A DNA stretch of 36,047 nt from Ignavibacteria bacterium (lineage in GTDB: Bacteria > Bacteroidota > Ignavibacteria > Kapaibacteriales > UBA2268), in contig JAAYTD010000067.1 of the NCBI GenBank assembly GCA_012518115.1, positions 1-36,047 on the forward strand, in the 5' to 3' direction. Shown here piece by piece: positions 28,878 to 36,047 of the stretch (positions within the stretch are counted from its first letter, which is position 1; each line of letters begins with the position of its first letter). The notes under the pieces are model-generated. The model was not told the DNA's origin, did no database searches, and was given only the letters and a program-made list of their open reading frames with translations. A program made the translations under genes and the position numbers.

Positions 28878-30320
28878 TTAGAAAATAAAGCGAGTGTTCC
28901 CTAATACACGCTTAATTCTCTCTTTTTCCGAATTAGACAATAAATTTTGTTTCAAATCTAACATGCGTAAATTAGATAAATTACTCAAAGAATCCGGCAA
29001 GTATTTTATTTTATTATTCGCCAACAAAATGATTTTGCAATTTTGTAGAAAAACCATCTCATTTGGTAATTCATTTATATTATTATCTGTTAAATTTAAA
29101 GTTACAAGTTGTCCTAATGATTTAATATTAGCAGAAATTTTATTCAAAAAATTATAAGACATATTCAGATGTTGGAGCAATGGTAACTCAAAAATAATTT
29201 CAGGTATTTCAGTAAAATTATTATACGATAGATCTAATTCTTTTATTTTTCGCAGATTTCTCAAAGAATTGGATACTTTTTTTAAATGATTTCCACTAAT
29301 ATCTAATGCCAACAAATTACTCATCTGGAAAATTTGTGAAGGCAAAAGTCGTGTTTTCGAGTGTGAAATTTTAAGAACTGTCAAGTTGCCCATGTTTTTC
29401 ATACTTACAGGCAAATCTTTCAGCCTATTTCCTCCGATATTTAAGGTACAAAGCGAATTTAATTTAGAAAAATCATTGCTTAATTCTGCAATTTCATTCG
29501 CACTTAAGTCCAAGTATTTCAAAGATGATAATTGATAAAATTCTTTTGGAAGTTCTGTTAAATAATTATCAGCTAATGATAAATAATGCATTTTTTTTAG
29601 ATTACCAACACTCGGAGGAATTACAGATATTTGATTTTTGTCTAAGTTTATACTTTCAACAGAATAAGGACATTCATCAAAATTAAAATATCGAATTTTA
29701 TTTCCTGATAGATCTATATTTTTCAAAAAATCACATTGTGAAAATGATATATTTATATCTTTAATTTTATTTTTGGAAATATCAATTCTTTCTAGCTTCT
29801 TTAACTTAGAAAAATTAGCTTCTAACGAAGAAATTTGATTTCCCGCCAACTCAATAATTTCAAGATTTGGTAATTCTAAGAGCTCCAAAGGAAATAATTT
29901 TAGCTTATTTTTATTTAATTTAATTTCACGAAGTTTTTTCAGACTAACAAATTCTTTAGGTAGTTCTTCAATATTATTATTACTTAAATCGAGTTTTATT
30001 AAGTCTTTCATCTTAAAAACATTGGCAGGCACAGTAGTTATATTCTGTCCTTCTAATGACAAGCTTTTAGTTGAATTTATATCTCCAGATAAACGTTTAT
30101 AATTACGTGCAGTTCCCTTTCTGTTTATAGGAATGGGTTTCCGTTTTTGGTTTTGACAAAAATATTGGAATTGCTCAGAAAAATATACTTCAACTTCAGC
30201 CTTCACTATGTTCATTTCTATACTTTTTTCTCTAGCATACAAAAGCTCAGAGAAAAATATAAAGATAGAAATTATAAATACAGTTTTTTTCAAGTAATAA
30301 GTATTGCTACTATATAACAT
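28878..30320 (-). CDS. Secreted leucine-rich-repeat protein
   Basis: 480 residues. A signal anchor or signal peptide (about 10-29: KTVFIISIFIFFSELLYA) precedes a polar region and then 17 tandem 23-residue LRR units (about 84-475), with the usual LxxLxLxxNxLxxLPxxFxxL pattern (for example LIKLDLSNNNIEELPKEFVSLK). A short C-terminal cap (LGNTRFIF) ends the protein. LRR solenoids bind other proteins. It is the first gene of an LRR-coaE-sixA group, so it may share transcription with two housekeeping genes. No known enzyme domain is attached. A T9SS sorting domain is absent, so it should stay in the periplasm or be tethered by its hydrophobic N-terminus. Confidence 0.87.
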   Translation of the reverse strand: MLYSSNTYYLKKTVFIISIFIFFSELLYAREKSIEMNIVKAEVEVYFSEQFQYFCQNQKRKPIPINRKGTARNYKRLSGDINSTKSLSLEGQNITTVPANVFKMKDLIKLDLSNNNIEELPKEFVSLKKLREIKLNKNKLKLFPLELLELPNLEIIELAGNQISSLEANFSKLKKLERIDISKNKIKDINISFSQCDFLKNIDLSGNKIRYFNFDECPYSVESINLDKNQISVIPPSVGNLKKMHYLSLADNYLTELPKEFYQLSSLKYLDLSANEIAELSNDFSKLNSLCTLNIGGNRLKDLPVSMKNMGNLTVLKISHSKTRLLPSQIFQMSNLLALDISGNHLKKVSNSLRNLRKIKELDLSYNNFTEIPEIIFELPLLQHLNMSYNFLNKISANIKSLGQLVTLNLTDNNINELPNEMVFLQNCKIILLANNKIKYLPDSLSNLSNLRMLDLKQNLLSNSEKERIKRVLGNTRFIF

Positions 30321-30600: not shown

Positions 30601-33600
30601 ATGGCTAAGAAAAAAACTAAAAAAAAGATAAGATTAGAAGACATTAGAAAATATCGCTGGTCAGCTCTTTTTACTTTTATTATGACCATTGTAATTGCTT
30701 TTCTATTGTATGTCTTATATATGTACGTGAGACATTATGACGAGGAAGCATTTGTTAACTCTAAGACAGATATAGTAAAAATGTTAAGCAATATTGTTGC
30801 ACCTCTTACAGAAGAACAAGCTGATCAATCTGAGTTTAACAAATTATTATATAACTATCTAGACACATATTCCAAACAAAATATTAATTCTACTGACGAT
30901 ATTATATCTATTTATATAAGAACAAACGATCAGTATGCATTTTCAGAACAATTATTTCATTACAGTAATCCGTCTTATCCTCTAAACTTACAATTATATA
31001 AAATAGATGAGAAAAATAAAGGTTTACAACGCGAAGACCATCTGTTTGCTTCAATTACTCCAATTTATGGTGCCTTGGGAAACGAAGTTGGGACTATTAC
31101 TGTTCTATTTTCGACAGATAGTATGGAGGAAAAAGCCTCTAGTTTTATTAATCTTGTTATGTTATTAGCTACCTTTGCCCTGTTACTCTTTATGTTAATT
31201 GTATTTTTGCTGCCTAAACTTATACTAAATCCTGTAAATAGTATTGTTAAGACTATGCAATTGGTACAAGCTGGAAATTATTCTGCTAGGATAGAGCTAG
31301 ATAAGAATGGTACAAACAGAATTAAAAGTGCATATGAATTCGATTTTGCAGTCGAAGTATTTAATGATATAGCGAGTGTGTTAGAAACAAAACATAGAGA
31401 ACTATCTTCTTTAAATAATAAATTTTACAATGACGTAAACCAACAAATGGAGTTGTTTTCCAAAGAAATTGCAAAAGCTAAAAAATCTGAAGAAAATATA
31501 AGTAAAGAGATACAAGCCATCAATAATATTATAGAATATGCTCCTTTTCCAATTATAGAATTAAGTTCTGATTTCATTATAATAAGAAACAATAATATGT
31601 TTTCAAAAATATTCGGTTACGAAAACAATGAATTAATAGGCAGAAACATTAGAACAATACTCTACGATTATAATACTCAAGAGCTACAAGAAATTTTTGA
31701 AAAAAGCATAAATTCTACAGAAGTTTATAACATAAAAAAAATAAAAGGTAGAAAAAAAACGGGTAAATTGATGGATCTTGAAATAAAATTAGTTTTTATT
31801 TCCAATGATATAAAAGGTAGAAACGGATTTATTTTAACAATAAATGACATTAGTGAAACTCTAAGTATGTCTAAAAAAATTAGAGAAAACGAGTCTAGAT
31901 ATCGCAATTTGATTGAAGGAACAGTAACCGGTTATATAATTATACAAGATAATTTTATAACGTTCGCAAACGATGCTACTCTTAGAATCTTAGGCTACCC
32001 AAGTTTTGAAGACCTATATGTAACTCCACTCGAAAATATAATAAATCCTGAAGACAGAGAAGCGTTTTTTAAAAAAACTAGCACTGAGGAAAATGAAGCG
32101 ACTAATTTAGAAATAGAAGTTACTTGTTTTGCAGGTGAAACGAAAACAATTGAAGGCATTCTAACTACTGTTACTATAGATAATATTCAAAGGAAGCAGC
32201 TAAGTTTTTATGACATTACGAAACGAAAAAGTACGGAACAAAAATTAATGAATATGAATGAGATTTTAGAACAACGTATTCTTGAACGTACTAAATCTCT
32301 TAATAATGCTATGCAATTACTCCGCTCTGAAATTGACAAGAAAGAAGAAATTGCAAGTTCTTTACAAATCAAATCTAATATATTAGATATAATACAAACT
32401 GTTTGTATTGTTCATGATCAAGATGGGAAATGCGTATATTTTAATAAATACTTAGAAACGCTTTTAGGTGATCCTAAAAATTATCACAAATCTATATTTG
32501 ACCCTAATACTAATCCTATAGAATTAGAAGGAATTGAATATGAAATCTTAAGCGATGAGATTTTCTATATTACACAAGAAAACATAGCTAAAGTTGCAAA
32601 AGGCGAAATACCGCTACCTAACGCAGACAAAGGCTATTGGATATTGAAAATTAGAAATAAATTTACCGACAATGAGACTTACTATTATCAAATGCAAGGC
32701 ATTGTAAAAGATGGAATGTTTATTCAAACGGGTATAGACATAACCAATATGGTTGTGACTAATGAAAATCTCAAAATAGCTAAGGAACAAATTGAATTTC
32801 AAGCCAATATTATTGATCAAATATCAGCTATATGTTTTCTTTTTAATGCTCATACAGGCGAATGTACTTATGCAACCCCTTATACTGCAAACTTACTTGG
32901 AACTACATCAAAAGAATTACTAGGTCAAGGCATTTGGAAATACTTGGATAATAATCCTGAAATTAAAAAAATACGTAATTTAATTAATTCGCCTGACTTA
33001 ACAACTGAAACAGATTTATTTAGCAATACAATTTTTTATATGCATCAAGCAGATAAGTATTTTAATTTATATATTGAGTTTCTTGAAAACAACAATATCA
33101 TTTGCTTCGGCTCAGATATTACAGAAAGAATACTGGCACAAAATGAAATTGAACAAAAAAACAAAACATTAGAACAACTCGCAAACGATTTAGAAGAAAA
33201 ATATAACATATTAAACAACTCCTTAAGTCTTTCTTTAGTATTTGATGAAACAGGTGATGTTGTATATTATAATCCTTACGTATTAGAAGCTTTTGCTCTT
33301 TCCGAACAGTATCGCCCGTTCTGGCCAAGTGAAATATATGAAATGTATGGAAAAATGTTTGAAATTATAACTGAAAATGACAAATTTAAATTTACAAAAG
33401 AAACTATGAGTAAGATTGTTAAGGGCGAAATCCCTATAGAAAAAGACAACTGGATAATAAAAGTTTGTCATGAAGGTACTAATTTTAAGCCTAAGTATTT
33501 TAAAACTCAAGGGGTTGTTCTTGATAATAAATTTATTCAAACAAGTATTGATGTTACTGATATTGTTCTTGCTAATGAAAAATTGAAAAAAATAACAGAA

Positions 33601-36047
33601 GAACTAAAACTCAAATCTCACATTCTAGATAATATACCAGTAACTTGTATTGTTGCCGATACAAATGGCGACTATATTTATCATAACCCTTATACTATTG
33701 AAGCTTTTGCTATTCCTGCCATAACTTCTACACCATCATCATATTTTGAAAATCAAGTGTTTGAAGATATAGACAAAAGATATGAAACTTTTCATGAACT
33801 TGGAGTTATTCCCCCTACAAAAGAAAATCTTGCTAAAATAGCAAAAGGGGAAATTAGTTTGATGACTTCTGAGGGTAAAATGAACTGGCTAATGAAAGTT
33901 CGTCATGAAGGTACTAATAATGAAACAAAATACTTTAAAACAGAAGGAGTTATAATAGACGGACTATTTATTCAAACGGGAATCGATATTACTTCCGAAA
34001 TCTTAACCAATGAAAAATTGCAAAAAACAACAGAAGAACTAAAACTTAAATCTCATATTCTAGATAATATACCAGTAACTTGTCTTGTTTCCGATATAAA
34101 TGGCGACTACATTTATTATTCCCCTTATTCTATTAAAGCTTTTGCTATTCCTGCCATAACTTCTACACCATCATCATATTTTGCAGACGAAATATTTAAA
34201 GATATAGACAAAAGATATGAAGTTATAGACGAACTTAACAATGTTATTCCTCCTACAAAAGAAAATCTTGCTAAAATAGCAAAAGGAGAAATTCAATTAC
34301 GTATTTCTGCTGCTGGTAAAATGAACTGGCTAACGAAAATTTGTCATGAAGGTACTAATTACGAACCAAAATACTTTAAGACAGAAGGAACTATAGTAGA
34401 TGAACTATTTATTCAAACAGGAATTGATATTACTCGCGAAATCTTAGCCAATGAAAAATTAGAAAAACTTACAGGACAATTACAACTACAATCTGACATA
34501 TTAGCCCAAATACCTGCAATTTGTATTGTAATGAATAGTAGAACAGGTGGTTTTATTTATACAAACTCCTACACTCTTTCTATTATAGATATCTCAAAAG
34601 AAGAATTAGAAGAATATAATATATTTGATGTTTCAAATAGTAGAAATTTATTAGAGCTATTTGTTGAAAATACAGGATTAGCAACTCAAACTAACGAAAC
34701 TATTACTAGAGAAAAATTAAAACAAAATGTTATATTGGAACATCCAATAACAAAACAATATTTTAGAATAAATAGTGACCTACTTCAAAACGGCGATATA
34801 ATTTCTGTTGGAATTGATATAACTGAACAAGTCTTAGCACAAAAAGAAATAAAAGACAAAAATACTGAGCTAGAAAACATGACACAAGATTTAATAGTAA
34901 AATCAAATATGTTAGACAGCTTAGGAAGTTTATGCTTAGTTTATGACAAAAATGGCGAATGTATATACTGTAATTCTTATACATTAGAAAGTTTTTCTAT
35001 AACTGATGACCAAAAATATTTACTCAATGATATTAATAATATTAATTTACACCATTCTGAAAATGTAAAATATGAAGTTGTGTCGAAAAGTGAACTTCGA
35101 TTTACACAAGAAAATATAAAAAAAGTTCTTAATAACGAAATAACTATAAAAACAATCGAACAAGAAAACTATATCTTAAAAATTAGTAACCATAAAATAA
35201 ATTATGACACTAACTATTTCAAATTACATTCTACAATAAAAGATAATCTGTTTATTCAGTCGGGAACAGATATTACTGACCTTGTGTTAAGCAATAACAA
35301 ATTAGAAGAGTTAACAAAACAATTAGAAGATGCTTTAATTGAAGAACAAGAACTTAATGAACTAAAAACTCGTTTCGTTTCTATGATATCACATGAATAC
35401 AGAACTCCGCTTACTATTATTCTTTCAAGTGTAGCAGTAATTCAACAAGCTATAGAAAATAACCGAGCTGATATGGCTACAAAATTTATAGAAAGAATTG
35501 AAAAAGCAGTTAAAACTATGTCTAACCTAATGGAAGATGTTCTAGCCTTTGGAAAAGCAGAAGCTACAGAAGTTACGAACATTGAGGAAATTAACTTAAC
35601 TACATTTATATCAGATATGATATTAAGTTTAGATTCAGTTTATAAACAATATACTTCTAAAGTAAAATTAGAAGTTATAGGTGAAATACCAATTATTAAA
35701 ACAAATGAAAAATTATTAACTCATATAATACAAAATTTACTTACAAACGCAATAAAATATACTACTAATAGCGAAGATGCTATAATTAAAATTGTTAAAG
35801 AAAATGAAAATATAAGAATAGATGTTATAGATAAAGGTATCGGCATTCCGGAAGAAGATCTAAAACATTTATTCCAAGACTTTTATCGCGCAACTAATGT
35901 CGGAAATATCCAAGGCACAGGACTTGGAATGCGTATCGTAAAAGATAGCGTAAATAAACTTGGGGGTAAAATTACTGTAGAAAGTAAAGTAAATGTTGGT
36001 TCAACGTTTACTGTGGTTTTACCAATTAACACTCCCCCCCCCCCGCA
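30601..36047 (+). CDS. Giant membrane histidine kinase with nine PAS-like modules (3' partial)
   Basis: At least 1815 residues, with no stop between ATG 30601 and the window edge. Order: TM1 (about 20-43), a periplasmic sensor loop (45-180), TM2 (182-206), HAMP (about 205-265), coiled coil, PAS A (307-421), PAS B (432-544), coiled coil (545-595), then seven tandem modules of 130-147 residues (starting near 591, 734, 867, 1005, 1150, 1297 and 1434). Most modules show a PAS-like start (ICIV.D..G..IY.NPYT), a middle KENLAKIAKGEI, an NW..K..HEGTN turn and an end FIQTGIDIT; the second and sixth are the most diverged. A DHp domain has His1598 in MISHEYRTPL. The ATPase domain has N-box NLLTNAIKYT, G1 DKGIGIP and G2 GTGLGMRIVKDSV, so it looks active. 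No receiver domain is seen before the edge. Modules 4 and 5 are near copies. The last residues after GSTFTVVLPIN are a Pro run from an 11-C tract, probably not real. Confidence 0.9.
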   Translation, partial: MAKKKTKKKIRLEDIRKYRWSALFTFIMTIVIAFLLYVLYMYVRHYDEEAFVNSKTDIVKMLSNIVAPLTEEQADQSEFNKLLYNYLDTYSKQNINSTDDIISIYIRTNDQYAFSEQLFHYSNPSYPLNLQLYKIDEKNKGLQREDHLFASITPIYGALGNEVGTITVLFSTDSMEEKASSFINLVMLLATFALLLFMLIVFLLPKLILNPVNSIVKTMQLVQAGNYSARIELDKNGTNRIKSAYEFDFAVEVFNDIASVLETKHRELSSLNNKFYNDVNQQMELFSKEIAKAKKSEENISKEIQAINNIIEYAPFPIIELSSDFIIIRNNNMFSKIFGYENNELIGRNIRTILYDYNTQELQEIFEKSINSTEVYNIKKIKGRKKTGKLMDLEIKLVFISNDIKGRNGFILTINDISETLSMSKKIRENESRYRNLIEGTVTGYIIIQDNFITFANDATLRILGYPSFEDLYVTPLENIINPEDREAFFKKTSTEENEATNLEIEVTCFAGETKTIEGILTTVTIDNIQRKQLSFYDITKRKSTEQKLMNMNEILEQRILERTKSLNNAMQLLRSEIDKKEEIASSLQIKSNILDIIQTVCIVHDQDGKCVYFNKYLETLLGDPKNYHKSIFDPNTNPIELEGIEYEILSDEIFYITQENIAKVAKGEIPLPNADKGYWILKIRNKFTDNETYYYQMQGIVKDGMFIQTGIDITNMVVTNENLKIAKEQIEFQANIIDQISAICFLFNAHTGECTYATPYTANLLGTTSKELLGQGIWKYLDNNPEIKKIRNLINSPDLTTETDLFSNTIFYMHQADKYFNLYIEFLENNNIICFGSDITERILAQNEIEQKNKTLEQLANDLEEKYNILNNSLSLSLVFDETGDVVYYNPYVLEAFALSEQYRPFWPSEIYEMYGKMFEIITENDKFKFTKETMSKIVKGEIPIEKDNWIIKVCHEGTNFKPKYFKTQGVVLDNKFIQTSIDVTDIVLANEKLKKITEELKLKSHILDNIPVTCIVADTNGDYIYHNPYTIEAFAIPAITSTPSSYFENQVFEDIDKRYETFHELGVIPPTKENLAKIAKGEISLMTSEGKMNWLMKVRHEGTNNETKYFKTEGVIIDGLFIQTGIDITSEILTNEKLQKTTEELKLKSHILDNIPVTCLVSDINGDYIYYSPYSIKAFAIPAITSTPSSYFADEIFKDIDKRYEVIDELNNVIPPTKENLAKIAKGEIQLRISAAGKMNWLTKICHEGTNYEPKYFKTEGTIVDELFIQTGIDITREILANEKLEKLTGQLQLQSDILAQIPAICIVMNSRTGGFIYTNSYTLSIIDISKEELEEYNIFDVSNSRNLLELFVENTGLATQTNETITREKLKQNVILEHPITKQYFRINSDLLQNGDIISVGIDITEQVLAQKEIKDKNTELENMTQDLIVKSNMLDSLGSLCLVYDKNGECIYCNSYTLESFSITDDQKYLLNDINNINLHHSENVKYEVVSKSELRFTQENIKKVLNNEITIKTIEQENYILKISNHKINYDTNYFKLHSTIKDNLFIQSGTDITDLVLSNNKLEELTKQLEDALIEEQELNELKTRFVSMISHEYRTPLTIILSSVAVIQQAIENNRADMATKFIERIEKAVKTMSNLMEDVLAFGKAEATEVTNIEEINLTTFISDMILSLDSVYKQYTSKVKLEVIGEIPIIKTNEKLLTHIIQNLLTNAIKYTTNSEDAIIKIVKENENIRIDVIDKGIGIPEEDLKHLFQDFYRATNVGNIQGTGLGMRIVKDSVNKLGGKITVESKVNVGSTFTVVLPINTPPPP
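32371..35331 (+). repeat. Seven tandem PAS-like modules within the giant kinase
   Basis: Modules begin near 32371, 32800, 33199, 33613, 34048, 34489 and 34900. Modules 4 and 5 are 435 bases apart and share a 48-base identical block (33701-33748 and 34136-34183) and a 35-base identical block (33814-33848 and 34252-34286). A one-codon insertion lies between the two blocks in module 5. Module boundaries fall at a recurring ILxNxKL coiled segment and a KS.IL or QS.IL start. Confidence 0.85.

Follow-up and report, generated by a model that had tools for sequence, protein, structure and literature searches.

Seven of the nine PAS-fold modules in a giant transmembrane sensor histidine kinase are most parsimoniously read as the product of a lineage-specific expansion within the gene, in which an ordinary third PAS domain multiplied from one copy to seven and gave rise to one diverged subtype. 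The kinase gene closes the window, by which we mean the whole stretch of DNA analyzed here: the entire contig C50 (36,047 bases), one of the 92 contigs of a draft genome of 2.48 Mb. Its reading frame (30601–36045, + strand) comprises 1815 codons with zero stops and is open at the contig end inside a C11 tract. A stop-free run of this length has a log10 P of about −72 at local composition, and the GC content of the three codon positions (39/28/19%) displays a normal bias, in agreement with the single long stop-free frame reported by the first-pass annotation. GC is about 30% in the window, and the genome as a whole is low-GC. Ten HisKA matches were found in the genome; the kinase is the largest frame among them, the next being 1158 aa.

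The protein is predicted to be a transmembrane sensor histidine kinase whose nine PAS-fold modules consist of two Pfam-recognized PAS domains and seven further modules (the array), matching the nine PAS-like modules counted at first pass. Hydropathy places transmembrane segments at aa 18–45 (30652–30735) and aa 178–216 (31132–31248), flanking a periplasmic segment of about 130 residues (aa 46–177, 30736–31131) that weakly matches CHASE8 in the homologue from genome G072. A HAMP-like linker follows (31219–31386), then PAS1 (aa 306–421, 31516–31863; Pfam PAS_9/PAS) and PAS2 (aa 431–543, 31891–32229; Pfam PAS_8/PAS). The earlier description of two ordinary PAS domains after a HAMP is therefore sound for PAS1 and PAS2, which pass Pfam, while the HAMP is sub-threshold here (PF00672, 14.5 bits versus a cut-off of 25) and clear in both homologues described below. 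Downstream of the array, the HisKA/DHp domain with phospho-acceptor His1598 (35365–35565; PF00512, 47.9 bits) and the HATPase_c catalytic domain, which is complete (aa 1702–1809, 35704–36027; PF02518, 100.4 bits), both score above cut-off. The core motifs SHEYRTPL (1597), QNLLTNAIKY (1711), DKGIGIPE (1744), and GTGLGMRI (1772) are present, confirming the intact core (His1598 and the N, G1, and G2 boxes) noted earlier, and this combination of phospho-accepting His and HATPase_c identifies the protein, on sequence, as a HisKA-type sensor histidine kinase. It is not a hybrid histidine kinase: HATPase_c ends at aa 1809, early stops follow in either candidate contig join, and there is no C-terminal receiver. 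No response-regulator gene was recognized beside the kinase or beside its two homologues. The divergent neighbor of the kinase gene (28878–30320) encodes a leucine-rich-repeat protein (LRR_8, six stretches), and the protein encoded at 266–2335 carries a T9SS sorting domain, a feature suggestive of Bacteroidota or a near relative.

The seven array modules, all on the + strand, divide into two types. Five are A-type: M3 (aa 588–718, 32362–32754), M5 (aa 868–989, 33202–33567), M6 (aa 1004–1134, 33610–34002), M7 (aa 1149–1281, 34045–34443), and M9 (aa 1429–1562, 34885–35286). The B-type modules are M4 (aa 737–844, 32809–33132), which appears nearest to the ancestral form, and M8 (aa 1296–1409, 34486–34827). 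A-type modules are mutually alike (pairwise z of 27–89) and M4 resembles M8 (z of 20), whereas either B-type module against the five A-type modules mostly scores z of 1–10. The signature TKENLAKIAKGEI / FIQTGIDIT is limited to M3, M5, M6, M7, and M9 and does not occur in M4 or M8, and the two types differ between C-alpha and G-beta. In a maximum-likelihood tree the A-type modules form a single clade (support 99/97), while M4 and M8 fall with the third-PAS modules of the homologues from genomes G097 and G072 and group with each other at moderate support (77/83); this tree is built on 134 columns and has long branches, which leaves its finer internal order unsure. Pairwise scores and tree thus replace the single signature family of seven proposed in the first-pass annotation with five modules plus two. 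Six of the seven array modules (aa 602, 745, 1016, 1161, 1308, and 1445; window 32404–35135) have a cysteine at the same alignment position in the first PAS strand, as does the G097 module; PAS1, PAS2, and the module of G072 lack it.

None of the seven array modules reaches a curated Pfam PAS cut-off, the best scoring about 20 bits. For the A-type modules, no curated PAS match is significant (best 17.6 bits versus a cut-off of 22.6), and the NCBIfam sensory_box model gives an E of 0.02 at best. We place the A-type in the PAS fold because it shares its position with a module of the G072 homologue that Pfam recognizes as PAS_9 (E = 4e-11), because its profile aligns with a profile of B-type plus homologue modules (hhalign probability 97.3%, E = 2.5e-11), and because an AF2 model of M6 resembles known PAS structures. 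The M6 model is of middling confidence (pLDDT 71.6); Foldseek ranks PAS domains highest for it (prob 1.00, lowest E 1.5e-4), and VIA returned Z values up to 8.9 (rmsd of 2.9 over 108 residues) that alone would be middling. Modeling thus assigns the A-type modules a PAS fold, and their shared position and profile match indicate common descent with a recognized PAS domain. With the Pfam PAS clan (PF00989, PF13426, PF13188) the array modules have in common the fold, the C-terminal D-[IV]-T motif, and the position in the kinase, but they score below its curated cut-offs. The earlier remark that they match no named PAS subfamily holds insofar as they fall below all named models in the Pfam run; since they derive by orthology from a Pfam-recognizable PAS domain, however, they are better described as divergent PAS domains than as something outside PAS. 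Searching PDB sequences with this A-type profile yielded nothing useful, no profile suggested CHASE or other extracellular domains in the array, and no cofactor motif (LOV, haem) was recognized in the modules.

The origin of the array is indicated by two homologous kinases from other genera of the same family, G097:C2 (958 aa) and G072:C123 (922 aa), found by searching with the N-terminal part and with the B-type. All three proteins follow the order TM-periplasmic-TM-HAMP-PAS-PAS-57-residue coiled-coil linker-PAS-42-HisKA-HATPase_c, but the two homologues carry a single third PAS, and no A-type module, where the array kinase has seven modules including the private A-type. The G097 kinase is colinear with the array kinase over its full length (21% in the N-terminal part, 31% in PAS1–2, 27% in the linker plus module, and 50% in the core), and the G072 kinase, equal in layout, gives a local match of 45% over 262 aa in the module/core part. 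A genus mate (G001, 95% complete) showed no match to the array, the N-terminal part, or the B-type. We infer an ancestor with the order TM-periplasmic domain-TM-HAMP-PAS1-PAS2-coiled coil-PAS3-DHp-CA, from which repeated in-frame duplication, in this lineage, would have raised PAS3 to seven copies. Two of them keep the ancestral type (B) and five represent a diverged subtype (A). The pair M6/M7 appears to be the latest duplication step, because its DNA is 87% identical in register at 435 bases (about 77% for the protein); M3, M5, and M9 share 35–44% identity with M6.

The linkers of the array bear on how such a chain could signal. We took each spacing as the distance between the D in the D-[IV]-T motif of one module and the first conserved Ile/Met of its successor. 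Within the array there are six, of 25, 32, 25, 25, 25, and 32 residues, all 4 mod 7; the 32-residue spacings come after the B-type modules M4 and M8 and are longer by exactly seven residues. Both the PAS2-to-first-module distance (57) and the distance from the last DIT to the His (42) are equal in all three kinases. In LOV/PAS kinases, output is set by linker length in sevens, and heptad spacing has been noted between consecutive sensor modules (PMC6798134). Because the array linkers differ by one heptad and the first and last lengths are constant in three kinases, the spacing supports a putative continuous coiled-coil signaling dimer; equal spacing among the copies is partly inherited through duplication and to that extent is not independent evidence. 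The long signaling rod envisaged in the first-pass annotation agrees with linkers that differ only by whole heptads, but a two-module structure prediction (pLDDT 55.7, pTM 0.37, low confidence) was too poor to show a helical linker or a rod.

The best explanation, and one we consider probable, is a homodimeric transmembrane kinase in which PAS3 has expanded from one copy to seven and a coiled-coil relay carries the signal to the DHp. The modules would pair across the homodimer, and two-stranded coiled coils would join them in one heptad register as a parallel dimer. Any module that changes in response to a ligand or to redox state would then produce a twist that is passed to the DHp helix, tipping the balance of kinase and phosphatase activity towards a response regulator presumably encoded elsewhere. 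After duplication the modules probably bound the same ligand at first, which would give a graded or cooperative input; divergence in ligand may be confined to the older ones.

The extra modules allow two other functional readings. They could be spacers, or largely neutral, with whole-heptad duplications tolerated and the periplasmic domain, PAS1, and PAS2 doing the sensing. The one-module state of the homologues fits this account, as does the lineage restriction of the A-type in the sampled genomes, and the near-identical M6 and M7 have a dN/dS of about 0.7 (5–95% interval of 0.44–1.18, which includes 1) that is not clearly below 1. The older A-type pairs argue otherwise: dN/dS is about 0.3–0.4 for M5-M6 and M3-M9 (0.6 for M5-M9), values that are rough given synonymous distances near saturation, and the five copies agree without exception at 21 of 129 columns. 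On these two grounds the fold was maintained under long selection, while the newest copies, M6 and M7, may be under relaxed constraint. We regard the spacer account as possible though somewhat unlikely. The first-pass annotation suggested instead that the array integrates several inputs, with a separate signal for each module. Divergence of M3, M5, and M9 to 35–44% identity with M6 would suit this proposal, as would the differences between A- and B-types from C-alpha to G-beta, but M6 and M7, with about 77% identical protein, probably sense the same thing, and LOV or haem motifs were not recognized. We judge one signal per module to be unlikely.

An assembly or frame artefact might be suspected, since the draft genome is in 92 contigs and the gene runs into a contig end at a C tract. 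However, exact repeats inside the gene are no longer than 48 nt and the copies differ throughout; together with zero stops in 1815 codons, normal codon-position bias, and regular module spacing, this makes an artefactual array very improbable. Contig C50 terminates in C11-GCA (the homopolymer, 36034–36044 on the + strand, lies in the last kinase codons), so the kinase frame is not closed within the window, and contigs C73 and C74 both start with a C run followed by GCA. The kinase nevertheless appears to be essentially complete, with nothing large missing beyond the contig end, because in either candidate join all reading frames hit a stop within about 23 codons past the tract. An indel in the C tract could change only the last few kinase residues. 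Either of the two contigs could follow C50, as both begin with C(n)GCA. C74 has a tldD-like pair that adjoins the kinase in G072, and C73 has queE, which is found near the kinase in G097; in both cases orientation and distance differ. We take the two tandem homologous genes (L086:7428-10001, L057:951-4519), which adjoin the kinase in G072 and lie near the C-tract end of C74, to be TldD/PmbA-like. Runs of at least nine C occur at only five places in the genome, four of them at or no more than 3 bases from a contig end: window 36034–36044, the end of C69 (L027), the start of C73 (L025), and the start of C74 (L026); in three cases GCA comes after the run. Assembly breaks at long C tracts, and they may be slippage-prone (phase-variable) sites, one of which sits in the last kinase codons.

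Within its own genome, the A-type is confined to the array kinase gene. Searching for other tandem arrays, as had been suggested at first pass, recovered none in the sampled genomes, and no A-type module was found outside the array kinase in 40 relatives, 123 genomes of the order, 391 of the class, and 395 of the phylum. Matches of 20–29 bits to the A-type in these genomes were weak and were read as ordinary PAS domains. Two peptide-pattern scans of genome contigs, which reach close relatives only, revealed no further A-type arrays. The A-type thus appears lineage-restricted among the genomes sampled, bearing in mind that absence from a sample is not absence in nature. It is conceivable, but in our estimation improbable, that the A-type arose and was quickly amplified in this lineage as a separate PAS subfamily with a ligand of its own, so that copy number tunes the sensitivity or cooperativity of the kinase.

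Large PAS kinases of the order (1799 aa in G016, 1708 aa in G113, 1478 aa in G005, and about 1600 aa in G084) likewise join several PAS domains to a kinase core within a single chain. Unlike the array modules, the PAS domains of these proteins exceed Pfam cut-offs, and three of the four proteins also bear receiver domains as well as GAF or PocR sensors. Published histidine kinases reach up to 19 PAS domains (Aulosira tenue; PMC10468136), and these giants resemble the array kinase in placing a long cytoplasmic PAS chain before the DHp-CA core. Compared with them at the level of domain architecture, the array kinase appears to differ in that most of its copies trace back to a single module and make up a private subtype. 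No paper on the expansion of PAS domains through duplication within a gene turned up in a literature search.

Long PAS chains are already known, and common, but their origin is seldom visible; the array kinase shows unusually clearly how one grows. The related kinases represent the one-module state, M4 and M8 lie near the ancestral form, and M6 and M7 are recent, so that together they provide a natural series. This series lets one ask whether the addition of copies in heptad register alters the gain of a sensor kinase or is neutral.
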